This document shows positions 9,686-61,017 of a stretch of 64,000 nucleotides of DNA, one piece after another. Both the position numbers and the translations under genes were made by a program. The first letter of the stretch is position 1; each line of letters begins with the position of its first letter. The notes beneath the pieces were generated by a model, which did not search any database, was not told where the DNA came from, and saw only the letters and a list, made by a program, of their open reading frames with translations. The DNA is taken from contig NZ_CP152050.1 of assembly GCF_038632915.1 (NCBI RefSeq), forward strand, positions 3,533,501-3,597,500. Direction: 5' to 3'. Origin of the DNA: Paenisporosarcina sp. FSL H8-0542. Its GTDB lineage: Bacteria; Bacillota; Bacilli; Bacillales_A; Planococcaceae.

Positions 9686-9748
9686 CTATTCGCGGTTTTG
9701 GAAGTTCTATTCGCGATTCTCGCCTTTCTATTCGCGATTTCAATCATT
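9686..9748 (+). repeat. Three tandem 21-base repeats with core CTATTCGCG
   Basis: Units start at 9686, 9707 and 9728. Each begins CTATTCGCG(A/G)TT and then diverges in the second half. A single frame across them reads as Tyr-Ser-Arg-Phe every seven residues, but there is no ribosome-binding site and the frame runs antisense into the next gene, so I treat the repeat as non-coding. It lies between the purine permease start and the coiled-coil gene. Confidence 0.8.
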
Positions 9749-9779
9749 TCATAGTATTTCCACGTCCAAAACACACAAA

Positions 9780-42287: not shown

Positions 42288-42330
42288 ATTTAAAGGAATC
42301 CGCATGGAACTTGCGATTTTTATTTATTCG

Positions 42331-42348
42331 TTTATGGTAGGGTTCACC
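42331..42348 (-). repeat. Diverged copy D of the rlmH 3' end
   Basis: On the minus strand GGTGAACCCTACCATAAA encodes Gly-Glu-Pro-Tyr-His-Lys and matches copy B (56702-56730) at all but one of 18 positions. After CATAA the match ends abruptly, so only the coding side of the repeat is shared. Same orientation as rlmH. Confidence 0.6.
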
Positions 42349-42424: not shown

Positions 42425-42505
42425 CTGACCCCTACATTTTGCTATAAACTGATACTTTTAAATAGTCCAGCCCTTTGCTACTGTTATCAGTGAATTCAAA
42501 AAAAC
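42425..42505 (+). repeat. Leader repeat R1 upstream of the ECF transporter gene
   Basis: About 80 bases with shared blocks CCTACATTTT, ATACTTTT, AATAG, CCTTTGCTA and GTTATCAGT are found again at 52582-52652. Here they end just before the ribosome-binding site of the ECF S-component gene. CCTTTGC and GCAAAG could pair around the last blocks. It could be a structured leader RNA; it does not match a riboswitch class I can recall. Confidence 0.55.
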
Positions 42506-46672: not shown

Positions 46673-47050
46673 TTTAAAATATATCCATATTATAGTGTAA
46701 TACAATTATTTAAACATTAATATATATTTACTATTACCTAATAATTATAAGCTAAATAAAAGCAGGTTAACAGTGAGAAGTCCTTCCATAAGGCTATGGA
46801 ACATCCCAGTGTGTGCTGCACTGAAAAAATTCTATTTTATATAGTTAATTATAGTGATTTACAGTTTGACTTAAATCGATTCATTCTATATGACACAAAA
46901 AAGGGAGAACGCTTCGTATAACAAGCATTCTCCTTCTTTTTTGATTTAACTTCAAGTTTAAATTACCTCTTTGAAAGATTACCTTGCTCATTCAATGAAG
47001 TATTAATTCACACCATCTGTTGCTAGTTTGCACAAAACCATCAAGATAAG
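46673..47050. other. Gene-free stretch with a terminator
   Basis: AT-rich and without supported genes. A terminator at 46901-46935 (AAGGGAGAACGCTT paired with a slightly diverged complement) is placed to end the UvrA-like transcript and resembles the two AAGGGGAAGGCTT terminators to its left. Confidence 0.5.
46901..46935 (-). terminator. Terminator downstream of the UvrA-like gene
   Basis: A 13-14 base stem with one bulge and one mismatch, 8-base loop, T-run on the minus strand. It is 116 bases past the stop of the UvrA-like gene. Confidence 0.65.
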
Positions 47051-50000
47051 TTAATTATTTTGCTCAAGACTTTGATAAACGGAAATCATGTCTTGTTTAT
47101 CCAGCTCACGAATACGATTGAAAATAGGTATATCTTCCACACCATCTGTAAGTAATCTTTCAGCCACTACATCCCTTACTTTACCGGTCAGCCAGGTTTG
47201 TACGTCGAAGCCTTCGATGATTTCCTTCCGACCTTCATTATTGATACCACTAGCATGACAACTCACACAGGGCACCGACAATTTATACACGCCGTCATGA
47301 AGACCATCTTCGGAAATGACTTTCTTCCCTGCACAGAATGGACATTTATGACTTGCTTTAACTTTATTGATTTGGGTAACAATTTTTTTGTATCCAAACG
47401 CTTCGTACACATAAGTTAGCTTTTTATATTTTCCATTGGTGAAATACTTATCGATAATGGTTTCTCTCGTTTCGGTAATGTTGGCGAAATCACAGATTGT
47501 GATCTGGTTTTTACAGCTTATTGCTTCGATTTTGCTTCCAATACTGTCCCAGAATGGGAAAGCATTCTGTAAAACGATCTCGTAGTCAATAAAGCTTGCC
47601 TGCTCCAGTTCCAGCATTTTCAGTGCTACTTGCGTTCCCCTAGAAAGGAGGGAAACATCTTCAGTAAGCACCATATCGCCGCCAACAACCGCTTTTAGAT
47701 TTTCTAGTTCCGGCAATTTCCCTACTGTTTTTATGACTTGATCGATCGGTTGTTGAATGAGTTCACGAATATCGATGTTACCAAACAATAGTTTTTTATG
47801 ATGGTTCAGCACGGTTCCTTCACAGACAGGACAAGCAATCATCACTTTTGATTCCTTCATATGATCTTTAATGATGGATTTCGAAATAAACATATAACGG
47901 CCAATAATTAAATTAAAGCCTTCCCATGTTCTCGAAGCCTTGCCTGCTTTATCATAAAATGACTTTTCCCAATAACCATATAAAAAGGTGTGCTTTTCCG
48001 CTTCAGTCATCTCATTGAAGCTCTTGCTGATATCTTGTCCGAGTTCATTCTTTATCTCATCAAACAGGAATTGCAACTTTGGATATTGATAATATTTCAA
48101 TACCTCCATCACGTCTGGATGTAATAAGCCATCCCAGAATGGCACAGTTTTTTCCTGAATGACCACATCAAAATTGAATTTCTCAATGACCCGACGCCCG
48201 GAACAACATGGACAATGATTTTCTTGATTATAGAAATCGAAGCTTCTTGTATCTTTATTGGTCGGATGGGCAGCAACAATATGGTTGATCAGCCCGCCCA
48301 TTTCATAGAGGAAGCTATATTGACTATACAAGTGCCTTTCAAGATCAATGGCGATAACGGGTGCGATGATGTCGGATTCATATTCACCATAAATTAACCT
48401 TGCCATAGGTGAAAGGCTTTTTAGAATGCCGCCCTTATAGATATTTTCTGCATTTTTAAAGTAGACCAAATGATTTTCTTCTAAGTAGTGAATACCGTTT
48501 CGCTGCTTGAGTGTTGAAGAAATGTGCAATGGAGCAACTTCTTCACTATTTTTTTGACGGTAATACTCTTCATGACTGACAACATCAAGATGTTGAACAG
48601 GTGCAAGCTTTCTTTTACCAAAATCTACAATAAAATCAGAGCTTTCCAGCATATATGCATTATGTTCAATCATCATGATGGAGACAGATTCATTCTCTAG
48701 AATGACCCTAACACTATCAATAAATTGGTTTAAAATATTTTGAGATAACCCTTTTGAAGGCTCGTCAAAAATAAACAACGTATGTGGATTTTTGGCGTTC
48801 GTAAACAACTCAGAAACTAAATGAACACATTGAAATTCACCCGTTGATAAAGTTTGTGTTTTTCTTTCTAACGTCAAATAACCAAGTCCAAGTTTGATCA
48901 ATAAGCTCAAGCGTTTATGAGCGATGTCTTCCTTAGGTAGTTCATCAATAATATCTTCAATCGAACGTAGAAAAATATCATCTATCTCGTCACTATATTT
49001 AGTGAGTTTCTTCTTAATATCAAGAAACGTCGCAACGGTTGACCGGCTCGTAATCGATTGATTCCGATCTTGCCCAACCATGACTAGTTTATCTTTTGGA
49101 TATCGCTTCATAAAATCTTTGGTGATACACTCATTGACGAGAGTGGATTTACCACATCCAGACTCACCGGTAAAAGTGACAAGTCTATTTTTGGGAATTT
49201 GGATTTCATCTATTTGAATATTTCGGCAGTAAAGATCCTGGAATTGATAGTATTCTGTTGGCATAGCCTGATTTCGTTTCCAGATGATTGGTTTTGGACG
49301 TGGGGATTCTTCTACAATTTTGCCGCCATACTTGCCACTTCCTGGTCCAAAGAACAATTGCTCATCTGTTGCATCGAGTACCGTGTCAGAATGATCGATG
49401 AGCCAGATTTGATTCTTATACCCTAATTGTTTTATCTGTTCTAAAATTTTCAATAGTGTTTCGTGATCAAGGCCAACCGAGATTTCATCAATAATAATAA
49501 CGGTATTTTCACTGGCTGCCATGAACTCGGCCAAGTAAAGCCGTGTTAATTCCCCGCCTGATAAAGTCCCCATTATCCGATTCAATGTTAAATAACCAAT
49601 ATTCATATTGATTATATTTTGGAGAATATGCTGCTTCGCTTCACTAACGTGCAAAACTTCAGCTAATGAGAGAATGGTTTCTATGCTTAAGTCGTTGAGT
49701 TCGGAAATACTATGTGGTTTTCCAAATAATTCAATCGTATATTGCTCAACTTCTTGGTTATAACGACTGCCCTTGCACTTTTTACATTCCACATTTTTGG
49801 TCGTGCCACGTCCTTTACAATCCCGACACCAGCCTAATTCATTATTAAATGAAAAAACTTCTGGAGAAAGATTAAATTTTTCAGCAAGGCGAACACGAAT
49901 TTCTTTAAAAACGCCTGTATGGGTGCCAATGGTAGACCGCGGATTAGAAGAAATCGATGCTCTTCCGAGAAAAAGCACTAAAGGCATGTCTTCCATTTTG

Positions 50001-50218
50001 ATGGCACTGAAATTTGTTTCCATAATTTTAGAAAACAAATACTGATATTCTGCCTTTGGCAATAATGAAACGAGACGCTTCTTGGACTCTTCACCAATGG
50101 TTTGACTAAAAGTGGTTTTTCCGGACCCAGACAAACCTGCAATTCCTAACGATTGATTTACTGGCAGTAAGGCATCTAATTGATTAATGTTATTAGCAAT
50201 TAATCGATTTATTTTCAT
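47051..50218 (-). CDS. UvrA-like ABC ATPase with a cysteine-rich C-terminal extension
   Basis: This 1055-residue protein has a UvrA-type double-ATPase core. First half: Walker A GLSGSGKTT (28-36), zinc pair C131/C134 with C145/C148, signature LSGGE (219-223), Walker B IIIDE (241-245), H276. Second half: Walker A GESGCGKST (351-359), degenerate signature LSTGE (457-461), Walker B LFIFDE (481-486), H519. Each half is compact. The second-half zinc module of true UvrA is missing between 360 and 455, and there is no room for the UvrB-binding domain. A unique region of about 500 residues follows with CPCC (669-672), C796/C799, C959/C962 and C984/C987, and an LSRGTQ (858-863) that looks like a third, decayed signature. 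It is related to UvrA paralogues linked to drug or DNA-lesion tolerance, but not a canonical excinuclease subunit. It lies in the accessory region. Confidence 0.85.
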   Translation of the reverse strand: MKINRLIANNINQLDALLPVNQSLGIAGLSGSGKTTFSQTIGEESKKRLVSLLPKAEYQYLFSKIMETNFSAIKMEDMPLVLFLGRASISSNPRSTIGTHTGVFKEIRVRLAEKFNLSPEVFSFNNELGWCRDCKGRGTTKNVECKKCKGSRYNQEVEQYTIELFGKPHSISELNDLSIETILSLAEVLHVSEAKQHILQNIINMNIGYLTLNRIMGTLSGGELTRLYLAEFMAASENTVIIIDEISVGLDHETLLKILEQIKQLGYKNQIWLIDHSDTVLDATDEQLFFGPGSGKYGGKIVEESPRPKPIIWKRNQAMPTEYYQFQDLYCRNIQIDEIQIPKNRLVTFTGESGCGKSTLVNECITKDFMKRYPKDKLVMVGQDRNQSITSRSTVATFLDIKKKLTKYSDEIDDIFLRSIEDIIDELPKEDIAHKRLSLLIKLGLGYLTLERKTQTLSTGEFQCVHLVSELFTNAKNPHTLFIFDEPSKGLSQNILNQFIDSVRVILENESVSIMMIEHNAYMLESSDFIVDFGKRKLAPVQHLDVVSHEEYYRQKNSEEVAPLHISSTLKQRNGIHYLEENHLVYFKNAENIYKGGILKSLSPMARLIYGEYESDIIAPVIAIDLERHLYSQYSFLYEMGGLINHIVAAHPTNKDTRSFDFYNQENHCPCCSGRRVIEKFNFDVVIQEKTVPFWDGLLHPDVMEVLKYYQYPKLQFLFDEIKNELGQDISKSFNEMTEAEKHTFLYGYWEKSFYDKAGKASRTWEGFNLIIGRYMFISKSIIKDHMKESKVMIACPVCEGTVLNHHKKLLFGNIDIRELIQQPIDQVIKTVGKLPELENLKAVVGGDMVLTEDVSLLSRGTQVALKMLELEQASFIDYEIVLQNAFPFWDSIGSKIEAISCKNQITICDFANITETRETIIDKYFTNGKYKKLTYVYEAFGYKKIVTQINKVKASHKCPFCAGKKVISEDGLHDGVYKLSVPCVSCHASGINNEGRKEIIEGFDVQTWLTGKVRDVVAERLLTDGVEDIPIFNRIRELDKQDMISVYQSLEQNN

Positions 50219-50497
50219 ATGTACATCCTCTCTATTTATGTAAACTCAGTCTTTCCACGTTAGAACATCGACAAACTCTTTTGTGATACGGGTTCATCTT
50301 AATGGTCCAAAATAGTTTAACCACGTTTTTTATTTGATTTATAAAACCTACTTAAAAATCTCTGGAAAATACAAATGTAAACCACGCTCTATTAATCAGT
50401 TACTTCCTTCATTTAAATTTATCACTAATTATGGATTATTAAAATAACATCAGAGTTAAACTATGTGATAGCTATTTTGATAAAGGATGTGTATTAT
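50219..50497. other. Intergenic stretch holding a diverged rlmH-end copy
   Basis: No gene is supported. Bases 50281-50308 hold copy E of the rlmH end (separate entry). Promoters for both flanking genes must be here. Confidence 0.5.
50281..50308 (-). repeat. Diverged copy E of the rlmH 3' end
   Basis: On the minus strand the bases encode Thr-Ile-Lys-Met-Asn-Pro-Tyr-His-Lys, aligning with the Ile-Ile-Lys-Gly-Glu-Pro-Tyr-His-Lys end of rlmH in this window. Nucleotide core AACCCGTATCACAA matches AACCGTATCATAA of rlmH with one insertion and one change. No stop follows directly. Same orientation as rlmH. Confidence 0.5.
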
Positions 50498-50752
50498 ATG
50501 GATTTTTTTCAAGGCCAAGTAACTCTTACTACCTTTGAGTGGATTCTTCGAGCTATTGTTGCTTTTTTCTTCTTATTAACTGTTACTAGAGTATTAGGTC
50601 AGCGTGTCATCTCTCAATTAAGACCTCTTGATTTCGCTATTGCTTTAGTCATTGGAAACATTATTGCTCATCCACTATCAGATGAACAACTTGGGCTTAA
50701 AGGGTCTATCGTTACAACCATTGTATTGGATGTACCATTTACAAAAGGCTAA
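50498..50752 (+). pseudogene. Truncated DUF421 (YetF-like) membrane protein gene
   Basis: The 84-codon frame starts well (AAAGGATG ribosome-binding site, ATG at 50498) and gives the membrane N-terminus of the DUF421/YetF family: RAIVAFFFLLTVTRVLGQRV, ISQLRPLDFAIALVIGNIIA and HPLSDEQLGLKGS. Full proteins are about 210-230 residues with a soluble C-terminal domain. Here the family sequence breaks off near residue 77 and ends in an unrelated VPFTKG-stop. It is most likely a deletion remnant. YetF-type proteins are spore or vegetative membrane proteins of poorly known role. Confidence 0.75.
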
Positions 50753-50795
50753 TAACAGTGTAATATTACACTATTAGTGGAATTTAACACTGTTA
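50753..50795. promoter_or_regulatory. Nested palindromes upstream of the XRE regulator gene
   Basis: TAACAGTGT at 50753-50761 pairs with ACACTGTTA at 50787-50795, and AGTGTAATATTACACT at 50757-50772 is a perfect 16-base palindrome. The cluster lies 18-60 bases before the regulator start, as expected for an autoregulatory operator. The shared half-site AGTGTAA/TTACACT appears repeatedly. Confidence 0.55.
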
Positions 50796-50812
50796 CATGG
50801 AGATGATGTTAT

Positions 50813-51265
50813 TTGAATAAAGAAACTGTAATTGATTTGATTTCTAAGAATGTTCGACTAATTCGTCTTGAAAAAGGATATTCTCAAGAAAAAATGGCTA
50901 CTGTTCTAGGGATTTCCAAAAAGACACTGGTTCAAGTTGAAAAAGAAAGAACATCAATTGGTTGGACGAATGCAGTCGTAGTTTGTGCCTTATTTAAGGA
51001 TAGTCAAATCCTAGAACACATTTTAGGAGAAGAACCTTTTGAAGTAATTGAAACACTAGCTCACGATGGTATCAATACTCCAAAAGTAAAAACATTAGGA
51101 GGAAAAATGTTTTGGAATGAGATTGCGAAAAAAGGAAAATTTCGAGTACAACAAAATGTGATCAGCCAACATTATCGTATTTTAGATGGTAGTGATTATA
51201 GGTGGTATAGCACGTTTGAAGAAGAAGAAGTTATGAATCGTTTTTACGAATTAACTAAGGAGTAA
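50813..51265 (+). CDS. XRE-family helix-turn-helix regulator
   Basis: This 150-residue DNA-binding protein has an N-terminal HTH (residues about 8-60; RLIRLEKGYSQEKMATVLGI followed by SKKTLVQVEKER) and a C-terminal region of about 80 residues with MFWNEIAKKGKFRVQQNVIS and DYRWYSTFEEEEV. It starts with TTG, ten bases after GGAG. The next gene, a membrane protein, follows by 24 bases, so the two form a small operon. Palindromes just upstream suggest autoregulation. The C-terminal domain is not one I can name. Confidence 0.85.
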   Translation: MNKETVIDLISKNVRLIRLEKGYSQEKMATVLGISKKTLVQVEKERTSIGWTNAVVVCALFKDSQILEHILGEEPFEVIETLAHDGINTPKVKTLGGKMFWNEIAKKGKFRVQQNVISQHYRILDGSDYRWYSTFEEEEVMNRFYELTKE

Positions 51266-51289
51266 TTAAATTTTAAAGGAGAAATTACA

Positions 51290-51697
51290 ATGGATAAAAA
51301 CAAGAGAGTCATTATATTAAACAGTATATTAGTAGGAACTATCGTACTAAATCTGTTTATTTTTACTTCACGTATGCGCTTTTTCCCTTGGTTTATTGAA
51401 GATGCATGGGGATATTTAGGATTATTCCTAACTGCACCAATTTTAATAGGTATTTTTTTCATACTAAGACATTTTCACAAGCAACAACTAGTCACAAATA
51501 TAAATAAGACAATTCCATTGTTTGTCGCAATAACATCATTGATTATTGTGTTTGGGCCGACAACTGACTTTTTAAATATTGTTGCCCTTTTAATTAACGT
51601 AGCTTCAGTATTTTTAGCAACAAATTTCCTATTCAATCAAAATGGGGGGAAAAATAATTATGGATTTAGTAGTAAAAAATTAGAGTCGAATCTCTAA
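51290..51697 (+). CDS. Four-segment membrane protein paired with the XRE regulator
   Basis: This 135-residue protein has four predicted membrane segments (about 7-25, 39-58, 75-90 and 95-113) and a polar tail. AAAGGAG lies 8 bases before the ATG. It follows the XRE gene by 24 bases in the same direction. It may be the target or partner of that regulator. No family is recognised. Confidence 0.75.
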   Translation: MDKNKRVIILNSILVGTIVLNLFIFTSRMRFFPWFIEDAWGYLGLFLTAPILIGIFFILRHFHKQQLVTNINKTIPLFVAITSLIIVFGPTTDFLNIVALLINVASVFLATNFLFNQNGGKNNYGFSSKKLESNL

Positions 51698-51863
51698 CAA
51701 AGCAGGAAATTAGACTCATTTTATATCGAAATTTGTTTAGCGTATATTTTCGTTAAAATGTGGGCGGGACTCCGTAATGGCACTAAGTGAGGGTATTGAT
51801 GCTGTAAATTATGTTTAATAAATAGAAGGGCCCCCTTTACCTAATCATAAAATCAGACTATCC

Positions 51864-52309
51864 CTACGAATTGCTTCTGTACGGCAGACACTCTTTTCCT
51901 TGCCTAATGGTTGCTGTACCCTTCGTTGTTGTATAAGGCGGTGTTTTCGGCAAAACGTTCATGACCAATAGCCGGATTGAATGATCTTTATAAAATATTT
52001 CATCAAACGAAGGGGTTATGTGTGGATCCGTATTTTCAAATATCCTTTTTTGTAATTCTTCTATGTCTATATCAAATGGAATCCCTATTAAAACATTTTC
52101 TATTCCCTGAATTTTGTCGGCCACGCCGAAAACAACGCTGCCCCCGCCGCCATTTGCCATACAAACAGCGTATTTAATCATTTTATTGACGTTTTCCTCC
52201 ACAGCACTAAAATTCCATTGTTTAAAGTCTAGGTCCTGTGCCTCAAAATCATCTGCAATATGATGATCCAATTGCTGAATGATCTCCATGATTTCGCTTT
52301 TATCTTCAT
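51864..52309 (-). pseudogene. Truncated and frameshifted AlbA_2-domain regulator gene
   Basis: The sequence encodes the Schlafen AlbA_2 domain: HIADDFEAQDLDFKQW, VEENVNKMIKYAVCMANGGG, GSVVFGVADKIQGIENVLIG and KTPPYTTTKGTATIRQGKEC. Full proteins of this type run to 450-600 residues; here the frame ends shortly after GKEC. At the 5' end a perfect AAGGAGG lies 8 bases before an ATG at 52309, but that ATG is one frame away from the domain; one extra A in the AAATCATGG region would explain it. Both ends are thus damaged, so I call it a pseudogene. Confidence 0.7.
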
Positions 52310-52581
52310 AAGAATATCCTCCTTTCCAGCAAAATCGATCTATATACCTTGCAAATACGTTAACCAATGCTTATACAAAAAAGGCAGTCCCTTATTACAA
52401 ATACACTTGTAAGAACTACCTCTTATTATATTTATATGTTTGTTTCGTCATGGCTGTTTATAAAGCTTTTTGAAATTGCACGCCGGCTCCATACTTGCAT
52501 AAAGCCCCCGTGGTTCATTGATCCATTCAATCGGCTTCATCATACATTATTCAACACATGCAATTCCCAACTTTCTCCAAA

Positions 52582-52652
52582 CCGACACCTACATTTTTCG
52601 CTAAAGTAATACTTTTGAATAGACTAATCCTTTGCTAACGTTATCAGTAAAT
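52582..52652 (+). repeat. Leader repeat R2
   Basis: Diverged copy of R1 (42425-42505), sharing the blocks CCTACATTTT, ATACTTTT, AATAG, CCTTTGCTA and GTTATCAGT in the same order and spacing. No gene follows it in the same direction, so it may be the orphaned leader of a lost gene. Confidence 0.55.
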
Positions 52653-52807
52653 GTGAAAACGGATTTATTATGTAAGGATTTCAAAGGAAGGCTTACGTGC
52701 CACTCCTCAATATCTATAAAAGAAGAAAGTTGATGAACAAACATGGAAACTTAAACATTTATCAATACTCCTTGCACAGGTACCTGAAATTTTGTTAAAC
52801 AGATTAG

Positions 52808-52836
52808 AACCTCATTTACTTATGATAAGGTTCTCC
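52808..52836 (-). repeat. Copy C of the rlmH 3' end (att-like site)
   Basis: The 29 bases are identical to the true rlmH end (60530-60558) except at two positions, and on the minus strand encode Gly-Glu-Pro-Tyr-His-Lys-stop followed by ATGAGGTT. Direct repeat with copies A and B. About 15 further bases on its right resemble those next to copy B. Confidence 0.85.
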
Positions 52837-52840
52837 GTGA

Positions 52841-54919
52841 CTAATCTATTTGAGGATTATTCAAATTGTTTTTAGAATAGAATTTAACAAAAAAAGTAGT
52901 GCCATCTAATCCAGTTTGAATTTCAATTTTCGCATTATGACGGGCAGCAATGGCGTAACAAATGCCTAACCCCAAGCCAGTGCCATTATCTTTGGTTGTA
53001 TAGAATGGAGTACCCAGTTTCTCTAATATTTCTTGCCTGATACCTTCTCCTTGATCCCGTACTGCAAGAACTACACAATTTTCATCTTCTATGTAGGTAC
53101 TGATGGATAGCACTTTCCCTGTGCTCATCGCTTCTAAGCCGTTACGGTATAGGTTTATTACTAATTGCCGTATCTCATTACGATTTAAAAGCAATTCTGG
53201 GATGTCTTTAGTATCGAATTGAATAAGTTTATTTTGATTAAATGTATCAATCTTTATTAAAGGTGAAATATCATAGATAATTGAATTTAAATCTAACATC
53301 TGTAAATCAGATGTCCTTGTATTTCCCATTGAAAGAAATTCAGTAATAATGGCATTGGCACGGTCAAGTTCTTCAATCATTAAATTAAAGTGGTCATTAT
53401 GTTTTTCAAATTCGTCCTCTTTTTTTAATAACTGTAAGAATCCTCGTACCGTTGTCATTGGATTTCTAATCTCATGGCTGATACCTGCTGCCATTTGCCC
53501 TATTAATTCTAAGTTGGAAAACCTTCTCAGTTCATTTTCATATTTCTTTTTTTCCGTTACATTTTTAAATAGGCAACAGATACCCTCGTCATACGGGTAA
53601 GCCACTACTTCGTAACAATAATCTTCAGAGGTTGCGGGAATATCGAAATGTACAGGAACTCTCTCTAACATCGCACGATGAAATTCTTTATACATGACGG
53701 TATCTATACTTTTCGGGAAGATCTCCCATATATTTTTGCCTAATACATCTTTTGCCGCTTTCTTTTGTGGTAAATATTGATGTTTATTTATGTAAATAAA
53801 TTCCCATTCTTTATTCAAAGCAAAGAACCCATCCGTAATACTTTCAATAACACTTGTAACTTTTTCATTAGCAGCGGCTAGTTCCCTTGTTCGCTCTTCC
53901 ACCATGTTTTCAAGTTGGTCCATATCTAACAAGTTTGAAAACGTAGGGGCTGTGGCATCAACTATAGATTGTGCCAGTTGAATTTGGGATTCATCGTAAC
54001 TGTGAGTTTTTCTCACCAAATCCACAACTGTTATTACCCCTAATACTTCTCCCATTGAAACCAATGGAATCATAAGCAGCCCCTTTGTATCCTCACTTGG
54101 GATGTGAATTATATTTTTTGTTATAATAGCCTCTTGGATCATGGCTTCATAGCTATGGACCATTTTTATGTTATTAAGGGTTTCACTCCACTCTGCTTCC
54201 GTCCAATCACAGTCTTTACTTAACTTCGTTAATCTAATTGTTTTTTTTTCTAACGGTTCTAGGAGGTGGGCAGCAATATTTTTGCTATCTAAAATCTTTC
54301 CTAAGTAGAAAAAGCATTTATCAAGACTTTCCTGTATCGAGGAACACATCGATAAATCACGTGTAACATTAAGCAACAACTGCTTTTCGGCAATAAGGTT
54401 TTCCTTTTGTGTTAAATTATTCACGTTTTGAATTGCGACTGCAGCCATATTCACATAAGCTTCAACACTTTGAATTTCCGACTCTGTCAAGTTCATTGGC
54501 GTTCCATAATCAAATAAAAAAACTAGACCAAATAACTCTTGCTCAATTGAGATAGGCAGAACTAATAAGGATTTAATTTTGAAGGCTTCAACTGATTTCG
54601 GATCCGGCCGATTATCTTTTGAGGTATCCGGGATGTGGATGGTTTTTTTAGTTTCAATCACTTCTTTGGCTAGTAAGTCTATATCAGGATCAATTAGTTG
54701 CGTATCGAGCGCCATGCCATTCATGAGTTCAGGTTTTCCTGCAAATCCTCTAAATGTTCCATCTTTTTGAGGTAAATAAATACCAACGGAATTACATTGA
54801 ACAATCTCTTCAGATATTGCACTCGTTACACGCTGTAATACTTCACGTAGTTCTAACTTTGTATTTATTATTTTTGTTATATTTGCAAGCCTAGAATATC
54901 TTGTTTGTTCCATTAACAT
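52841..54919 (-). CDS. Soluble histidine kinase with GAF-GAF-PAS sensors
   Basis: This 692-residue cytosolic sensor kinase has GAF 1 (about 10-165, ending MAAVAIQN), GAF 2 (about 175-330), a short coiled linker VEERTRELAAANEKV, PAS (about 345-465, with ITDGFFALNKEWEFIYINK), HisKA with H482 in AAGISHEIRNPMTTVRGFLQ, and HATPase with DQGEGIRQEIL and TGLGLGICYAIAARH. No response regulator is adjacent. The HEIRNPMTTVRGFLQ type is shared with KinA/KinE-like sporulation kinases, so input to the Spo0 phosphorelay is plausible. Its stop codon lies 4 bases from rlmH-end copy C, at the edge of the putative inserted segment. Confidence 0.9.
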   Translation of the reverse strand: MLMEQTRYSRLANITKIINTKLELREVLQRVTSAISEEIVQCNSVGIYLPQKDGTFRGFAGKPELMNGMALDTQLIDPDIDLLAKEVIETKKTIHIPDTSKDNRPDPKSVEAFKIKSLLVLPISIEQELFGLVFLFDYGTPMNLTESEIQSVEAYVNMAAVAIQNVNNLTQKENLIAEKQLLLNVTRDLSMCSSIQESLDKCFFYLGKILDSKNIAAHLLEPLEKKTIRLTKLSKDCDWTEAEWSETLNNIKMVHSYEAMIQEAIITKNIIHIPSEDTKGLLMIPLVSMGEVLGVITVVDLVRKTHSYDESQIQLAQSIVDATAPTFSNLLDMDQLENMVEERTRELAAANEKVTSVIESITDGFFALNKEWEFIYINKHQYLPQKKAAKDVLGKNIWEIFPKSIDTVMYKEFHRAMLERVPVHFDIPATSEDYCYEVVAYPYDEGICCLFKNVTEKKKYENELRRFSNLELIGQMAAGISHEIRNPMTTVRGFLQLLKKEDEFEKHNDHFNLMIEELDRANAIITEFLSMGNTRTSDLQMLDLNSIIYDISPLIKIDTFNQNKLIQFDTKDIPELLLNRNEIRQLVINLYRNGLEAMSTGKVLSISTYIEDENCVVLAVRDQGEGIRQEILEKLGTPFYTTKDNGTGLGLGICYAIAARHNAKIEIQTGLDGTTFFVKFYSKNNLNNPQID

Positions 54920-55068
54920 TCACACAGTCTCCAATCAATTGGGTTAGCGTTTATTATTTACGTCTTAGTGATCTTTCAAAGGAAGGATCCAAATAGAAAT
55001 AAAGAATACTATATTATTAATAAAAAAGATTCCATACTGAATATCTTTTTACATTGAGTAGGAATTTG

Positions 55069-55399
55069 GATTACTTATTTGAATCGATTAATGAAAATGT
55101 ATATGTACTAGCAATATTGGACACAAGTTGGAACTCTTATAACAACTGTTACTTTATTGTACAGGAAGTTGATAGATTTAGGTAAAAAGGAGCATTCCAT
55201 ATACCTTGAACAAGCTCTAAATAGAATAGGCAAATCACCAGAAGATGTTACTCTCATCTTAGCAACCCACGGTCATAAGGATCATGTACAAGAAGCTACT
55301 ATTTTTAAAAATGCTTCTTTTGAAGAACAAGATGTATACCTCTCCGTCCCTTCCAAACGATAGCCTTATCCTGAAAACATTATCGAATTGCATGAATAA
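55069..55399 (+). pseudogene. Eroded metallo-beta-lactamase-fold hydrolase gene
   Basis: Frame 1 reads FESINENVYVLAILDTSWNS followed by YNNCYFIV; the reading then continues in another frame as LIDLGKKEHSIYLEQALNRI and ILATHGHKDHVQEATIFKNA, carrying the zinc motif THGHKDH. A TAG interrupts it after VYLSVPSKR, and PYPENIIELHE follows in frame before the sequence breaks off. The gene therefore has a frameshift near 55165, a nonsense codon at 55360-55363 and a lost C-terminal half. Confidence 0.7.
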
Positions 55400-55773
55400 T
55401 AGCCTTGTTTTTTGTTCCATAAAACTCTTTATTTGAAATTGGTGTTGTTCCCTACGACCACATTAATTGGTAATTTCCAAACCAATATCGATTTCTTTAA
55501 CATAGTAACTACTTCTTGGAGCCCTCCACATTCTCATTAAATATATATTCTTATTATTTCTTTTGATAAAAAAGTATTTATTAGAACAAGTGTCTACTCA
55601 AAACGAAATATATGAGCATATACATATTGAATATCCAATAATTTGTTACGTTTTCGATGTTAAGAAGATAAGTGTAACTTTATTACGCGAGACCATTATT
55701 TTCTTCCCTACTGAAGTTTAACCTCTCATTTTTTTGGAGAATAAAATGAATTCGATAAAGGAGGAATAGAAAA
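55400..55773. other. AT-rich gene-free stretch upstream of the second SET gene
   Basis: No gene is supported. A seven-codon frame at 55748-55771 (MNSIKEE-stop, with TTGGAG before it) overlaps the ribosome-binding site of the SET gene; this is probably chance but could be a leader peptide. Confidence 0.45.
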
Positions 55774-56370
55774 ATGATGCATCCGAATACCGAAATTCGG
55801 TATGTAAATGAGAAAGTAGGAATTGGAGTTTTTGCAACAAAATTAATTCCTAAAGGAACCATTGTCTGGATTAAAGATGATTTAGATATTGTTCTTGATG
55901 AGTCATATATTGAAAGTCTTGATGATGTTCGAAAAGAGTATATATATAAATACTCATATTTAGATAATGACGGCGAATATGTTCTCTCTTGTGATCACGC
56001 AAAGTATATTAACCATAGCTTCAATCCAAATATAGTAGATACAGTATATGATTTTGAGTTAGCTGCGAGAGACATTCAACCTGGCGAACAAATAACATGT
56101 GATTATGCTGCATTGGGTGAAGATGAAGATTTTGAATGTATACCTGAAGAAGGCACTTCAAGAACAAAAGTGACAGCAGATGACTATCTAGTTTTATACG
56201 AAGAGTGGGATAAAATGGCAATAGAGGCGTTTAAGTATTTCAACAAGGTGGAACAACCTCTAAAACATATGATCAGTGAGCAATATACTGATAAAGTAAA
56301 TGCGGTTGCTAATGGAACCGAACCACTAGATTCAATCCTTACTTTATTTATCGATGATGACGAAGACTGA
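55774..56370 (+). CDS. SET-domain protein, paralogue 2
   Basis: This 198-residue SET-domain protein is a paralogue of the one at 3518-4111; both start M-x-HP-x-TE-x-RY-x-N and share GxGVFAT, IPKGTI, YxNHSF, ELAxRDIxPGEQ and YFNKVEQPL. The SET motifs KYINHSFNPN and CDYAALGEDEDF are intact and closer to the consensus (NHSxxPN) than in paralogue 1. The C-terminus is acidic (DDDED). AAAGGAGG precedes the ATG pair. It should be a lysine methyltransferase; the target protein is unknown. It lies between rlmH-end copies C and B, in the accessory region, and has low GC like its neighbours. Confidence 0.87.
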   Translation: MMHPNTEIRYVNEKVGIGVFATKLIPKGTIVWIKDDLDIVLDESYIESLDDVRKEYIYKYSYLDNDGEYVLSCDHAKYINHSFNPNIVDTVYDFELAARDIQPGEQITCDYAALGEDEDFECIPEEGTSRTKVTADDYLVLYEEWDKMAIEAFKYFNKVEQPLKHMISEQYTDKVNAVANGTEPLDSILTLFIDDDED

Positions 56371-56391
56371 GATTGAATTTTCGAAATTTGA

Positions 56392-56595
56392 ATAACAGTT
56401 TTAAAGGCTTTAACAAAACACGACCTAAAACAAATTTTTGAACGCTACTATCGAGGTACAAATACCAAAAACGTTCGCGGCACAGGTCTCGGCATGGCTA
56501 TTTCTAGAGATATTATTGAGGCACACGGTGGAAATGTTATATTGTCGAGTAAAGTTGGCATCGGCACAACCGTGGAAATTCGTTTAAGTGAGTAA
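56392..56595 (+). pseudogene. C-terminal fragment of a histidine kinase
   Basis: The open frame reads LKQIFERYYRGTNTKNVRGT, GLGMAISRDIIEAHGGNVIL and SSKVGIGTTVEIRLSE-stop. This is the F-box, G2-box and C-terminal end of a HATPase domain of a transmembrane-type sensor kinase. There is no start and the N-terminal parts are gone. A terminator follows. Confidence 0.8.
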
Positions 56596-56601
56596 AAGAT
56601 A

Positions 56602-56643
56602 AAAGGGCTATCTTAGTTGGAAAAATAACTAGAAAAGCCCTTT
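56602..56643 (+). terminator. Terminator after the kinase fragment
   Basis: AAAGGGCT pairs with AGCCCTTT, with an inner TAGTT/AACTA pair, followed by a T-rich stretch. It is a leftover of the lost kinase gene. Confidence 0.7.
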
Positions 56644-56701
56644 CTTATTGAAAAAAACAGTCCAAGTAAAATAATTAAACTGTTTCCTTTATTACTTCCT
56701 A

Positions 56702-56730
56702 AACCTCATTTACTTATGGTAAGGTTCACC
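56702..56730 (-). repeat. Copy B of the rlmH 3' end (att-like site)
   Basis: On the minus strand it encodes Gly-Glu-Pro-Tyr-His-Lys-stop then ATGAGGTT, differing from the rlmH end by three bases and from copy C by two, all silent in the frame. Its TAAACCTCATTTA end is repeated in inverted form at 56741-56753 (TAAATGAGGTTTA), so the site can form a 13-base-pair stem. Confidence 0.85.
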
Positions 56731-56802
56731 GTAGCAGGGCTAAATGAGGTTTATTCTCTTTTCCATTTTAGATAGCCGGCTGAAGGACCACCCAACTCTC
56801 TC

Positions 56803-57996
56803 CTACTCCAACAGCTCTTCCGGAAGCAGCTTAAATCCTTCAATCATCGTGTCTTCTTCCACCTCGATCAATAGACAGCGTTTGCCATTGTAATTGATCT
56901 GTTTGACATATCTCAAGTCTTGCGGGCTGATCGCAATATTCGCTACTTTCGTGCTGATTTTGATTGACTTGGACGCGTAGCTTGGAACGACATGGCTTGC
57001 TTTCATTTCATAGTTTTTGTCTTCAACCACCTGCTGAAAGGCCATTTCCACTTTTTCCGTACTCACATCTTTTACGCCGCTCGCCTTCAACACACGTGCA
57101 ACCTCTATAGAATCCAAAGTAGGAGTACTCCCTACTTCGTCCTCACCCTCTTTTTCCACCAATAACATATTATTGATTTCATCATATACACCGGCGAGGG
57201 TTTTCGAATTTACTTCATCACCAATTACTGCTTTGACAATTTCTTCAAACACCGCTTTATCTTCCTCGGCAGTCATGATTTCATTGCCGTTCAACACATT
57301 CTCGATAAACTGGAAATCTGGTTTATTCGCTTTGCTCGCAGCATAAAGGACGTGATTGATGTCTGCGGCGTTGTCCGTGAAGCTAGGGAACAGAAATCCA
57401 CCAATTGGAGTGGCAAGTTTAATGACGGGATCAGCCAGCAGACTGGACTTAAACTCTTTCTCGACAAAATCAAACACCAGTGAACGTTTCGGCAGTTCGG
57501 TTTGATTCATGCTACTGAGGATAAAAGGAGTGGTATACACTTCATCTCGATCGTCTATTTCCGTTTCATCGGGATGACGTTTCGTCGTTTTATAATAATT
57601 TCCACGAATGAATGTGATGACTATGTCCTTTTCATATTGGCTATCCTGAACCATCTTCAAGGCGATACGTTGCATACCCGCTTTCCATTCCCCGACATCA
57701 TCTGCATGAAGCCCCTCAAATAAAAGTCGCTGCGTATGGTCCGTTTGCCCCTCTCCTTGACGCTGGAACTTCACATCAAACAGCTTCACATCTAGTTTCC
57801 CACCTAAAACCTTTTTAAAGTTGGCAAGGAACAGCTCTTGCTGCTCCCGGTCCAGCAAGGAAAATGTGCGGCTCTCTTCATAAAAGATATCACTGCTTTC
57901 CTGCTTGATGTAAACGTTATAAATGTCAGCGATTTTCAGTAAATCAGTATCCATCTTAAATTGTTTGCGAATCTCCGCTATATCCTTATTATTCAT
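56803..57996 (-). CDS. DUF4317-family protein
   Basis: This cytosolic protein of about 397 residues matches the DUF4317 family: the start NNKDIAEIRKQFKMDTDLLK followed by IADIYNVYI, and the segment GGFLFPSFTDNAADINHVLY in the middle are characteristic. Length is normal for the family. A frame to 58008 exists via TTG, but family members begin at MNxKxIAEIR, so I start at the ATG at 57996; GGGAG lies 12 bases upstream. The function of DUF4317 is unknown. I considered a KwaB-type defence protein and rejected it. It lies between rlmH-end copies B and A. Confidence 0.85.
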   Translation of the reverse strand: MNNKDIAEIRKQFKMDTDLLKIADIYNVYIKQESSDIFYEESRTFSLLDREQQELFLANFKKVLGGKLDVKLFDVKFQRQGEGQTDHTQRLLFEGLHADDVGEWKAGMQRIALKMVQDSQYEKDIVITFIRGNYYKTTKRHPDETEIDDRDEVYTTPFILSSMNQTELPKRSLVFDFVEKEFKSSLLADPVIKLATPIGGFLFPSFTDNAADINHVLYAASKANKPDFQFIENVLNGNEIMTAEEDKAVFEEIVKAVIGDEVNSKTLAGVYDEINNMLLVEKEGEDEVGSTPTLDSIEVARVLKASGVKDVSTEKVEMAFQQVVEDKNYEMKASHVVPSYASKSIKISTKVANIAISPQDLRYVKQINYNGKRCLLIEVEEDTMIEGFKLLPEELLE

Positions 57997-58133
57997 CTCT
58001 AATTCCAACTCCCTGGCAAGTAAGATCCGCGTTATCTACAAAAAAAGAGCATCCAAAGCTACAGTTTAGCTTCTGACACCCCTTTATTATAACAATATTT
58101 AAAATGAAGAAAGGAACACAGTCAATTTTGGAT

Positions 58134-58217
58134 CGAGTGACTCCTGTGGGAGCAGCGTAGCGACGTGTCCAGTGAGGCCCGCGCGGAAAGCGTTTGCCTG
58201 TTTCTGTCTCTGCATCG
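58134..58217 (+). repeat. GC-rich intergenic repeat element, probably truncated
   Basis: The block with GAGTGACTCCTGTGGGAGCA and GCGCGGAAAGCGTTTGCCTG is far richer in GC than its neighbours. It matches in style a family of long intergenic repeats common in Bacillus and Planococcaceae (GACTCCTGCGGG ... GCGGAAAGCG). The middle part expected between the two blocks is shorter than in the copies I remember. Confidence 0.6.
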
Positions 58218-58272
58218 CTGTGCTAGCTTCGAGACATGAAAAGGCGTTGCATCGCTGCGCTAGCTTCGAAAC
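58211..58272 (+). repeat. Imperfect tandem duplication of a 25-base unit
   Basis: TGCATCGCTG(T/C)GCTAGCTTC plus GA(G/A)AC occurs at 58211-58235 and 58248-58272, with two differences, separated by 12 bases. Confidence 0.75.
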
Positions 58273-58408
58273 CTAACGAGAACCATCCCCTGTTTCATAA
58301 GCATTCTTGCTTCATCAAACACAAGAAATGTCCCCGTGTCTCAGTCGTAATAATCTCAATTATTTAAAAGGAATTTTATAGTATATAATGGACATATAAT
58401 AAAAAAGA

Positions 58409-58431
58409 GAGAAGTATTGTAAGCACTTCTC
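58409..58431 (-). terminator. Terminator of the small basic protein gene
   Basis: GAGAAGT pairs with ACTTCTC around a 9-base loop, with a T-run on the minus strand; 44 bases past the stop. Confidence 0.7.
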
Positions 58432-58474
58432 CCCATGTAACCTCTACCGTCAGGGTGGTGGTTGTCATTGTGGA

Positions 58475-58627
58475 TTATTTATGAGAACCACCCTTTTGCT
58501 TGCGACGGCGCAGGGTGGTTTTCTTGTCTTCTAGAACATTCTTCCGAAAAAAATATGCGCTTACTTCACGCAGAACTCCCTTCAGAACTTCTCTGAAAAT
58601 TTCAAGAAATGTTTCCGTGATTATCAC
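58475..58627 (-). CDS. Small basic protein with unusual start
   Basis: A frame of about 50 codons encodes IITETFLEIFREVLKGVLRE then VSAYFFRKNVLEDKKTTLRR and RKQKGGSHK, an amphipathic helix with a strongly basic tail. AAAGGAGGTGAT, nearly the full complement of the 16S rRNA tail, lies right at the 5' end, but the in-frame GTG at 58625-58627 overlaps it. Possible start codons at proper spacing are ATC (5 bases) or ACG (8 bases), neither canonical. A terminator follows. I believe similar short proteins with RRRKQKGGS-like tails occur in other Bacillales. The function is unknown; coding status is likely but not certain. Confidence 0.45.
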   Translation of the reverse strand: MIITETFLEIFREVLKGVLREVSAYFFRKNVLEDKKTTLRRRKQKGGSHK

Positions 58628-59176
58628 CTCCTTTCCTAACAAAGGAAAAGAAGATTGACAACCCGGCCACCCCAACAATATACAGCTAACAACTCCATTC
58701 TATCGTTTACTACCTATCTAAAAACCTATCAATCTTCGACAAATATCAGGGAGTGCCAGGAACGAATATTAGAACTTTCTAATTTCATCGACTGTCTTTC
58801 GATCTAATTGTTTAATAATTTTACGCTCTCCCGTTATACGATACGGAGGCAAAAAGAAAATAAAAAAGTTAGCTTTTTTAGTGATTAACAGTAATTCAAT
58901 TGAGGCTCATGAGATACACCCTATAGAGCATTTCTTTGTAAAGAGGAATGTTTTTATTTTTGCCTTAATAACTTATTAACAATAAAAACATTATAAAAAT
59001 AAATAAAAATTTATTGTTTATCGATAAATAAAATGTTAATATCTAAAAAACAATACTTATGAGAGGTGCTTTTCATGAAACCTGAGAAGACAGTCAAAGG
59101 TAAGAGAGTTTGATTAATAAACATTATTGAGGAAAGTGTAGGACTTAATATGACAATTATTAAGGGAGGTATAATC
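58628..59176. other. AT-rich stretch upstream of the membrane protein gene
   Basis: No intact gene is supported. A 12-codon frame at 59075-59113 (MKPEKTVKGKRV-stop) has GAGAGGTG upstream and may be the start of a decayed gene or a leader peptide. A short GTGCCAGGAAC sequence occurs at about 58753. Confidence 0.45.
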
Positions 59177-60424
59177 ATGGACAGTAACAATTTAATTATT
59201 GAAAATATTGCTAATCCCCATGAGCTGGAGAGAATGTTTAGAAATGACCCCAAAGCCTTTAAAAAGTCATTCTCAGACGCATGGGAACAAAATCCTGATT
59301 CTCAGGTTCTTGGCATTTGGTATGAAAGATTGCATTTCAAGGAGACGGCACATTCAGAAAAATCTTCCTTGCTTCAAAAAGGTTTCTTATTCATGGGCAT
59401 TTTAGCCATTCTGGCCGGGATAAGCACCAGAATCATTTTCCATTTTGTCGAACAAGAAGCAATTGCTCCAATTAACCTGGCTTTTGGTATTATTCCCTTT
59501 ATTGCTGCCTATTTTGTTTACAATAATACTCCGAAAAAAAGTGTTATTTATTCCCTTGCAGCGTTGTTCCTAATTTCCGGGTTTTATCTTAATATGCTGC
59601 CATTAAATTATAAAGACAGTATTATCCTTGCTTATTTACACCTTCCCATATTCTTATGGGTATTGGTAGGGCTTGCATTTACAGGAAATGAATATTCAAA
59701 AGGCAGTACAAGATTAGCCTATATTAAATTTAATTTGGAATATTGTATTCTCTACGCCAGCATGGCAGTTAGCGGAATGGTGCTAGCGGCATTAACCATG
59801 CAGTTATTTAGCTTTGTTGGCTTGGATATAGAAGAATTCTATTTTAGTAATATCGTTTTATTTGGTGCTGCCGCTCTCGCTATTGTGGCTGCATACCTGG
59901 TATCAATGAATCTTAATCTTGCTAAGAATATTACACCATATATAGCTAAAATTTTTAGTCCTCTTGTTCTGATCACATTGTTGGTCTATCTTATAACGGT
60001 TATATGGGTCGGAAAAAATCCATTCTTGGACCGCAATTTCCTGATAGCCTTCAACGGAATACTCCTTGGTGTATTGGCCGTTACCATATTTTCTATTACC
60101 GAAAGCGACTCAGACGAGAAAAAGAACATTTCAGATTATATAAATTTTTCCTTAATTGTTCTTGCGCTTATCATTGACAGTGTGGCTTTGTCAGCCATCG
60201 TGTTCAGACTTTCTTCTTATGGCATTACACCAAACAGACTTGCTGTTTTAGGTGTAAACATACTTATCTGGGGAAATCTTATTTGGATTATGGTCTCATA
60301 TATGCGTTTTCTACAAAACAAGACCGGACCTTCACCCATCCAAGATGCGGTCACTAAGTATTTGCCAGTTTACGGACTTTGGGCGGCTTTCGTTACATTT
60401 ACTTTTCCTTTCTTTTTTAATTAG
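59177..60424 (+). CDS. Polytopic membrane protein of unknown function
   Basis: This protein of about 415 residues has a soluble N-terminal segment of 65 residues (NPHELERMFRNDPKAFKKSF, AWEQNPDSQVLGIWYERLHF) and then about ten or eleven membrane segments, ending in FVTFTFPFFFN. AAGGGAGG lies 7 bases before the ATG at 59177; the longer frame to 59150 has no such site. The layout resembles DUF4153/DUF2157-like membrane proteins, but I cannot assign it firmly. It lies between rlmH-end copies B and A. Confidence 0.75.
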   Translation: MDSNNLIIENIANPHELERMFRNDPKAFKKSFSDAWEQNPDSQVLGIWYERLHFKETAHSEKSSLLQKGFLFMGILAILAGISTRIIFHFVEQEAIAPINLAFGIIPFIAAYFVYNNTPKKSVIYSLAALFLISGFYLNMLPLNYKDSIILAYLHLPIFLWVLVGLAFTGNEYSKGSTRLAYIKFNLEYCILYASMAVSGMVLAALTMQLFSFVGLDIEEFYFSNIVLFGAAALAIVAAYLVSMNLNLAKNITPYIAKIFSPLVLITLLVYLITVIWVGKNPFLDRNFLIAFNGILLGVLAVTIFSITESDSDEKKNISDYINFSLIVLALIIDSVALSAIVFRLSSYGITPNRLAVLGVNILIWGNLIWIMVSYMRFLQNKTGPSPIQDAVTKYLPVYGLWAAFVTFTFPFFFN

Positions 60425-60468
60425 AAAGGCTATATTAATGTAACGGATGTTGATCTTCCTTATAAACA

Positions 60469-60510
60469 CCAAAAATGAAAAAGTTATACTCATAACTTTT
60501 TCATTTTTGG
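60469..60510. terminator. Bidirectional terminator between the membrane protein and rlmH genes
   Basis: A 19-base perfect stem (CCAAAAATGAAAAAGTTAT) with a 4-base loop; it lies 28 bases past the rlmH stop. Confidence 0.85.
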
Positions 60511-60529
60511 CTTTTTATTTTTCTAAAAA

Positions 60530-60558
60530 AACCTCATTTACTTATGATACGGTTCCCC
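60530..60558 (-). repeat. Copy A: rlmH 3' end (attB-like core)
   Basis: This is the true end of rlmH (Gly-Glu-Pro-Tyr-His-Lys-stop plus ATGAGGTT). Copies B and C repeat it 3.8 and 7.7 kb away. In staphylococci the SCC integration core (GAAGC-TATCATAA and following bases) is at the same codons. Confidence 0.85.
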
Positions 60559-61017
60559 TTTAATAATCCGAAAAGCTCGATATACTTGCTCCACCAACAC
60601 CAATTTCATCAATTGGTGTGGCAAGGTCATTTTTGAGAATGACAGCTTTTCATCAGAGCGCTTCATCACGTCTTCATGCAGACCGAGTGATCCTCCGATG
60701 ACGAACGCGATTTTGCTGCGACCATATGTCATGAGTGACTGTAAATCATCCGCTAGTTGTTCAGATGATTTCATTTTGCCCTCGATTGCCAATGCGATGA
60801 CATAAGTGTCCGTTCCGATTTTTGCCAAAATGCGTTCGCCTTCTTTTTTCTTGACGATTTCCATGTCAGCATCACTTAAATTTTCCGGTGCTTTTTCGTC
60901 TGCCACTTCAATCAAATCTATTTTTGCGTAACTTCCCAATCGTTTTGTGTATTCTTCAATACCCATTTTTAAGTACTTTTCTTTTAACTTCCCAACGGAA
61001 ATTATTGCGATATTCAC
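60538..61017 (-). CDS. rlmH: 23S rRNA pseudouridine-1915 N3-methyltransferase
   Basis: This 159-residue SPOUT-fold methyltransferase modifies the pseudouridine at position 1915 of 23S rRNA in helix 69. The family features are [20 protein letters not shown], the SAM-binding knot [14 protein letters not shown], and the end [16 protein letters not shown] with the active-site Tyr-His. It is called orfX in staphylococci and yydA in B. subtilis. Its last codons form the repeat described at 60530-60558. The position near walJ and htrA is conserved in Bacillales. Confidence 0.97.

Follow-up and report, generated by a model that had tools for sequence, protein, structure and literature searches.

In Paenisporosarcina sp. 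FSL H8-0542, a relative of Sporosarcina, the last codons of rlmH recur twice in the DNA that follows this gene, which raises the question of what these repeats are and how they came to lie there. We analyzed them in a window of 64,000 nucleotides (G000:C1:3533501-3597500, the whole stretch considered here) of the 3.63 Mb genome, which forms one contig. An earlier reading of this DNA, made from its letters alone (the sequence-only reading), had proposed an integration site like that of the staphylococcal cassette chromosome (SCC). According to our comparisons, the three repeats are very probably attachment (att) sites of SCC-like cassettes inserted in a row at the 3' end of rlmH. This reading of the array is supported by sequence comparisons of five kinds, namely the position and orientation of the copies in 80 related loci, inverted arms at the sites, restored empty sites, cassettes shared between genera, and genes similar to those of the SCC recombinases (Ccr-like genes) at the site in some relatives.

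The repeated unit is a 29-base core, of which bases 1–21 are the end of rlmH, while ATGAGGTT completes the unit. It occurs in three copies, all on the minus strand, which delimit two segments called cassettes A and B (Table 1), and the lengths of these agree with the earlier estimate of about 3.8–3.9 kb. The silent changes noted before were confirmed, as pairwise mismatches between the copies are confined to bases 3, 9 and 12, which are third codon positions only. The best core match in 20 Markov resamples of the window had 9 to 11 mismatches in 29 bases, compared with 2 and 3 for the real copies, and a degenerate core pattern (up to 3 mismatches) matched 4 places in the window, a number reached by 0 of 100 shuffles; a chance origin of the repeats is excluded by these controls. 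A fourth, decayed copy at 42328-42348, absent from the sequence-only reading, scored 16 bits with a site model, the next-best place on the minus strand reaching -1.6. The core followed by GAGG was found exclusively at the three window places in the whole genome. An RNA element was rejected as a candidate, since no Rfam match at the gathering threshold was found within the window.

To follow the core into relatives, as the sequence-only reading had proposed, we used the best 80 of 509 rlmH loci from named genomes with up to 10 kb on each side. They belong mostly to Paenisporosarcina, Psychrobacillus, Sporosarcina, Lysinibacillus, Planococcus and Planomicrobium; the Arthrobacter label of one record is probably wrong. 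Allowing 2 mismatches, 73 further core copies were found downstream of rlmH and on its strand in 45 of these loci (733 kb), and none upstream of the gene (779 kb) or on the opposite strand. Exact further copies alone numbered 44, in 32 of the 80 loci. Fifty of these 80 genomes, searched as a whole, contained 52 exact copies outside rlmH. Of these, 31 are located on the rlmH strand and at most 60 kb downstream of the gene, a share that is approximate because only 34 of the 50 genomes had an rlmH copy recognised by the pattern and the rlmH contig was uncheckable in the rest. Anywhere in the genome, at least one exact site of the type found away from rlmH was present in 67 of 160 genomes of the family and in 12 of its 17 genera (reversed control, 0 of 160). 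The nearest named genome, Paenisporosarcina sp. HGH0030, is the only other one of this species that we saw; its rlmH protein is 99% identical, the first 9.3 kb behind rlmH are 98.7–99.6% identical, and both window cassettes are present, with a 680-base difference inside cassette A.

The copies away from rlmH have an anatomy of their own. An arm, ACCKCAYTTA, tends to lie 20 bases ahead of their core and is the reverse complement of the core-end TAARTGMGGT. With at most 1 mismatch, it was present at 41 of the 75 away copies, which comprise the 73 from relatives and the two of the window. None of the 81 rlmH copies had it, and among 1620 random upstream places it was seen at 2. Because both ends of a cassette would be joined in a circle, the arm is expected to match the left end of its own segment. 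The arm variant indeed equalled the own segment start in 22 of 40 clear arms (shuffle mean 12.2; 0 of 2000 shuffles reached 22), and the start of the neighbouring, next segment in 11 of 40 (shuffle mean 10.4; 973 of 2000 reached that). In a within-locus control with 48 arms (up to 2 mismatches, HGH0030 omitted as a near-duplicate), the own start beat the mean of the other starts in 36 cases, lost in 5 and tied in 7. Because the arm mostly fits the start of its own segment better than the other starts, each segment behaves as a unit. The terminal inverted repeats in the window are perfect in cassette A and have 3 mismatches in 10 bases in cassette B, whose arm, with 3 mismatches to the arm pattern, was outside the arm-matching count.

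The median segment length is 2197 bases, with quartiles at 1090 and 3934. When HGH0030 is omitted, segments with one gene of at least 90 codons are the most frequent (28 of 71), 7 contain none and 36 contain two to eight, frames overlapping the left att site being excluded from these counts. In Lysinibacillus piscis (L063), two units of 72–73 bases (0-72 and 9704-9777 behind rlmH) are cassette ends without cargo. The cargo was scanned with 145 of the 149 proteins from the 71 segments, proteins under 100 aa being omitted. Anti-phage cargo as a common theme was rejected: among the PADLOC matches listed (25 of 140 families), three were strong single matches (SduA, a type II methyltransferase and PDC-S56) and the others mostly weak, and none of the 171 Pfam families was found in more than 5 of the 145 proteins.

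Evidence of insertion came from computationally restored empty sites. After removal of the segments and joining of the flanks at the outermost copies, three occupied loci aligned unbroken across the junction to relatives in which rlmH runs straight into the flank. The removed lengths were 8266 bases in Planococcus halotolerans, 4139 in Planomicrobium sp. CPCC 101079 and 9454 in Planococcus sp. MER TA 32b, and the alignments showed 86.6–91.0% identity over about 850 bases (4 comparisons), with the junction falling at the core. No empty-site pair was found for the window itself.

Cassettes of this kind are shared between genera. We compared identities in twelve cases, chosen as the highest or as involving the window, which represent ten distinct cross-genus pairs (five of them with the same histidine kinase cassette), one of these ten being read both ways, and one pair within Paenisporosarcina. 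In these chosen pairs, the cassette DNA was 85.2–96.0% identical compared with 72.6–79.3% for the upstream core genes, and it lay 10–21 points above the latter in the ten cross-genus pairs. The membrane-protein stretch of cassette A was 94.4% identical to that of Psychrobacillus sp. OK028 (upstream core 74.6%), where it lies directly behind an att copy. The histidine kinase stretch showed 85.2–87.8% against 73.0–76.2% for the upstream core (5 loci), and in three Sporosarcina, one Lysinibacillus and one Viridibacillus, a histidine kinase gene of 85–88% identity adjoins rlmH or att copies. The second segment of Lysinibacillus ZYM-1 and the first of Sporosarcina luteola MER 47 were 89.4% identical (core 72.7%); in both, the match starts with the first base of the att site. 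In Paenisporosarcina sp. TG20, the DUF4317 gene of cassette A occurs alone in a segment bounded by att sites.

Sites of the same kind lie elsewhere in the genome. Exact core copies followed by TGCGG were found at 654720 and 1190754; both are full sites with an inverted arm and are also present in HGH0030. Weaker copies at 1187419 and 2526491 (1 mismatch each) and 2123803 (2 mismatches) are less sure, because a reversed control gave 7 matches compared with 11 at up to 3 mismatches. The armless copy at 1187419 lies 3.3 kb before 1190754, so that both together would delimit a segment containing other genes. In Paenisporosarcina sp. OV554, the place matching 654720 is occupied by a DUF4317 segment between two att sites, which is 87.7% identical to that of the window over 1455 bases. 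Right behind the left site of this segment (L122 3729-5751), about 19 codons resemble, on inspection by eye, the beginning of a serine recombinase (ARVSTTEQAEEG), which was not found at E 1e-3. At a third place in OV554 (L125 2915-2960), a stretch resembles, again by eye, the final 40 bases of rlmH and has an in-frame stop.

Candidate enzymes for moving the cassettes occur in relatives. A PF07508 large serine recombinase was present anywhere in the genome of 25 of 50 relatives. Within 10 kb behind rlmH, full-length Ccr-like frames were found at loci L023, L040, L044, L060 and L082, a broken one at L058, and fragments at L056, L063 and L034 (44 residues). Inside the 73 segments, a Ccr-like gene is intact in 2 (L023, L082), broken in 1 (L058) and present as fragments in 2 (L056, L063). 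The best NCBIfam match of the eight recombinase genes at the rlmH site (L023, L040, L044, L058, L060, L082) was CcrB with 208–454 bits, followed by CcrC, and these scores exceed those of other serine recombinases in NCBIfam. The recombinase-bearing islands at the site measure 8–9 kb (L023, L082). The island of Lysinibacillus sphaericus 2362 additionally codes for a P4-type primase C-terminal protein and a Shedu protein, and its far end and five further att-like sites are spread across 10.9 kb; the solved structures nearest to its recombinase by sequence are the SPbeta-type (YokA) and TP901-1 serine integrases. At L040, L044, L060 and L082 (about 10415-10480), the Ccr-like genes run antisense into the rlmH end, with the att core within their last ~20 codons, and the frame at L082 would code for 551 aa in a circle and 560 aa when inserted.

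For the array in the window, we propose the following course. A Ccr-type large serine recombinase, provided by a complete island or another element and now gone from this genome, would act in trans and join the end of rlmH with the att site on a circular cassette. The core of the cassette would rebuild the last rlmH codons, and the displaced core would stay at the far end of the cassette. Because the cassette brings the last codons, rlmH would stay intact, which would explain the silent-only differences. Recombinase-free cassettes would ride in trans and remain once the enzyme is lost, as in this genome. That Ccr-like enzymes moved these very cassettes, that a circle was the intermediate and that the window array arose by successive insertions is what we infer. 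More tentatively, with doubt slightly outweighing confidence, the family as a whole may share a pool of small, often one-gene, recombinase-free cassettes moved in trans by Ccr-like serine recombinases into rlmH and secondary sites. They would then be the serine-recombinase counterpart of integron cassettes, and the staphylococcal SCC an enlarged, recombinase-bearing form.

Among the rival explanations, the one that fares best, which we still consider unlikely, is that only remnants are seen: larger ccr-bearing SCC-like islands would have been inserted and then have lost most of their genes, leaving short segments as decay products that are not separately mobile. The 8–9 kb islands and the broken gene of L058 fit this view, and so do the stretches of cassette B that look like gene fragments, the recombinase-like codons opening the OV554 DUF4317 segment, and the absence in HGH0030 of 2757 bases around the att-like site at 1187419, the ends of which lie off the core, as expected of a random deletion. 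However, one-gene segments are the commonest kind and the segment ends match each other, and decay in place would not give the same short cassettes in several genera, bounded by the att site in several pairs. A less probable alternative, which we rate as a slight possibility, is natural transformation followed by homologous recombination via the shared core and flanks, with no site-specific recombinase involved. While it would suit the lack of a recombinase in this genome and the finding that 13 of the 25 genomes lacking PF07508 still have extra copies, a core of about 30 bases is known to be short for homologous recombination, the cassette neighbours differ between genera, and Ccr-like genes are present at the site. 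Finally, a dispersed repeat family (of the miniature transposable element (MITE) or repetitive extragenic palindrome (REP) type, with terminal inverted arms) whose members resemble the end of rlmH and accumulate behind this gene might account for the copies at other places and the L. piscis units consisting of ends only, but is very improbable given the 31 of 52 exact copies downstream of rlmH on its strand, the constant orientation in 80 loci and the empty-site junction at the core.

Several observations weigh against the SCC-like interpretation. This genome contains no PF07508 large serine recombinase, and no Ccr-like gene piece was found in the window at E 1e-3, which bears out the earlier statement that no ccr is visible. 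Extra site copies are about equally common in genomes without PF07508 (13 of 25) and with it (16 of 25). All eight CcrB scores lie under the NCBIfam cut-off of 900, and by this rule the recombinases of the relatives are Ccr-like and not Ccr. No extra copy was found in 35 of the 80 loci in the up to 10 kb examined, and the shared downstream DNA is in some pairs no more alike than rlmH, falling up to 8.7 points below it. We found no strain pair that differed by one whole window cassette, and the 2757-base difference, through which HGH0030 lacks the copy at 1187419, was rejected as a cassette gain or loss, since one end lies ~35 bases beyond the core and the other far from any core. A polarity of the arrays, with older cassettes further from rlmH, was rejected as well: site quality showed no trend with rank or distance (Spearman -0.05, p 0.62; the first site was better than the last in 12 of 21 loci), and a newest-next-to-rlmH order is therefore not supported. 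The movement of the cassettes is itself deduced from DNA comparisons. The tie of the repeats to rlmH, for which the sequence-only reading had named an unrelated repeat family elsewhere as the counter-case, holds in part, as 21 of the 52 exact copies, by the approximate division given above, were not placed downstream of rlmH; several of these 21 have the full att anatomy, which makes them members of one family at secondary places as opposed to an unrelated repeat.

A pseudo-SCC has SCC-type ends but no ccr. SCC-type att sites at rlmH without ccr are present in the window, and by its content the array is a pseudo-SCC; arrays of this kind are common in the family. The earlier alternative of pseudo-SCC or decayed cassettes stands in its first half, whereas "decayed" may not fit the class, because recombinase-free segments are the rule in this family. 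Integron gene cassettes are likewise short units, often with one gene and one recombination site each, that are moved in trans. Integrons use a tyrosine integrase and sites of another kind, whereas a serine-type Ccr-like enzyme is suspected here; the arrays resemble integron cassettes in outline and are not counted as members of that class, no search aimed at an IntI-type tyrosine integrase or attC sites having been made.

According to the consulted portions of published accounts, SCC elements target the 3' end of rlmH and have direct repeats of its last codons, terminal inverted repeats and tandem composites, some without ccr (PMC10061031, PMC10581047, PMC3637587); the name pseudo-SCC occurs in PMC10061031, an SCC-like remnant without ccr in PMC3637587, and rlmH-inserted islands in several genera as well as ccrDE at rimL in PMC10581047. 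The window element shares with SCC the insertion at the rlmH 3' end (with empty sites from three relatives, not from the window itself), the flanking direct repeats with the last rlmH codons, the terminal inverted repeats and the tandem arrangement. Unlike SCC, it lies in another host family and lacks the ccr gene complex, as does the whole genome; the segments have a median of 2.2 kb, often with one gene, and the Ccr-like proteins of the relatives score under the NCBIfam cut-offs. The Enterococcus cassette chromosome (ECC), as far as described in the consulted portion of PMC6222049, is similar in its rlmH target, its ccrAB-like recombinases, the inverted repeats of its circle and of its att site away from rlmH, and its TATCATAA core, the C of which is reported to be essential for CcrAB; more than one such site is present in 16 of 32 ECCs. 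However, complete ECCs were chosen for ccrAB, whereas 2 of 73 segments have an intact Ccr-like gene here. The SCC-like islands with PolA-SSB primases of other Bacillota, described in 2023 with Planococcus antarcticus among the listed hosts (PMC10061031), also lie behind rlmH, have large serine recombinases and include some tandem composites, and their second ends were located by matching the last ~12 bases of rlmH. In contrast to our arrays, these islands were baited by recombinases and helicases, and recombinase-free arrays do not appear in the consulted portion of that text.

SCC-like islands at rlmH outside the staphylococci are thus already in print, and the variant described here consists of short, often one-gene, recombinase-free cassettes across a family, some of them at secondary sites. 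We found no account of recombinase-free cassette arrays in Caryophanaceae/Planococcaceae in the open-access titles and abstract openings listed, a limited statement given that subscription literature lies mostly outside that coverage. In staphylococci, SCC is mainly known for carrying methicillin resistance (methicillin-resistant Staphylococcus aureus, MRSA), and here SCC-type sites are spread through another family, with Ccr-like relatives at the same place in a few genomes and short segments nearly all without a Ccr-type recombinase. The interest rests on the scale, the shortness and the absence of a resident recombinase; the family offers a starting point for tracing where SCC came from, and it shows how gene cassettes can use a conserved gene end as a shared docking place.

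Table 1. Features of the rlmH region in the window (positions of the window, strand and remarks).
Feature	Position	Strand	Remark
rlmH, 23S rRNA methyltransferase	60538..61017	-	frame intact, C-terminal GEPYHK; sole PF02590 match in genome
att site 1, final rlmH codons + ATGAGGTT, start of cassette A	60530..60558	-	no inverted arm
Cassette A: membrane protein gene and DUF4317 gene	56731..60529	-	3828 bases including one att copy
Membrane protein gene, 424 aa	59150..60424	+	plasmid relative annotated DUF4153; without Pfam or NCBIfam match
DUF4317 protein gene, 401 aa	56803..58008	-	domain match
Inverted arm, right end of cassette A, ACCTCATTTA on minus strand	56741..56750	-	exact complement of cassette A start TAAATGAGGT
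att site 2, start of cassette B	56702..56730	-	67 bits with site model
Cassette B: histidine kinase gene, SET-domain gene, apparent gene remnants (by eye)	52837..56701	-	3894 bases including one att copy
SET-domain protein gene, 198 aa	55774..56370	+	domain match
GAF-domain sensor histidine kinase gene, 692 aa	52841..54919	-	domain match
Degenerate inverted arm, right end of cassette B	52847..52856	-	3 mismatches in 10, hand count
att site 3	52808..52836	-	60 bits with site model
Region C	46792..52807	-	missing between rlmH and malate:quinone oxidoreductase gene in Paenisporosarcina sp. OV554
Decayed att-like core	42328..42348	-	one mismatch to core pattern; no inverted arm; meaning uncertain

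Residence of the cassettes on plasmids was rejected as a candidate explanation, since none of 21 matching plasmid records (15 of the 21 listed) covered 80% of the two-cassette stretch; the similarities were 65–77% and confined to single genes. The membrane protein gene of cassette A has 76.6% DNA identity to a gene with the DUF4153 label on a plasmid record of Peptoclostridium acidaminophilum.

Beyond the cassettes, the match to the malate:quinone oxidoreductase gene starts 125 bases past rlmH in OV554 and 13.8 kb past rlmH in the window. The far (left) boundary of the window island was not found, as no att copy precedes this match, and no att copy was recognised at the far boundary of region C. 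The site at 42328 falls at a break of synteny with OV554, but the search of the OV554 locus yielded no further att-like site. Region C codes at 47051-50218 for a UvrA-like protein of 1055 aa, which scores far under the NCBIfam cut-offs for UvrA. A stretch of ~90 bases past att site 3 (52572-52659) resembles the DNA at about 42425-42501, ahead of an ECF-type transporter gene at 42524, and both stretches align to one and the same place in OV554.

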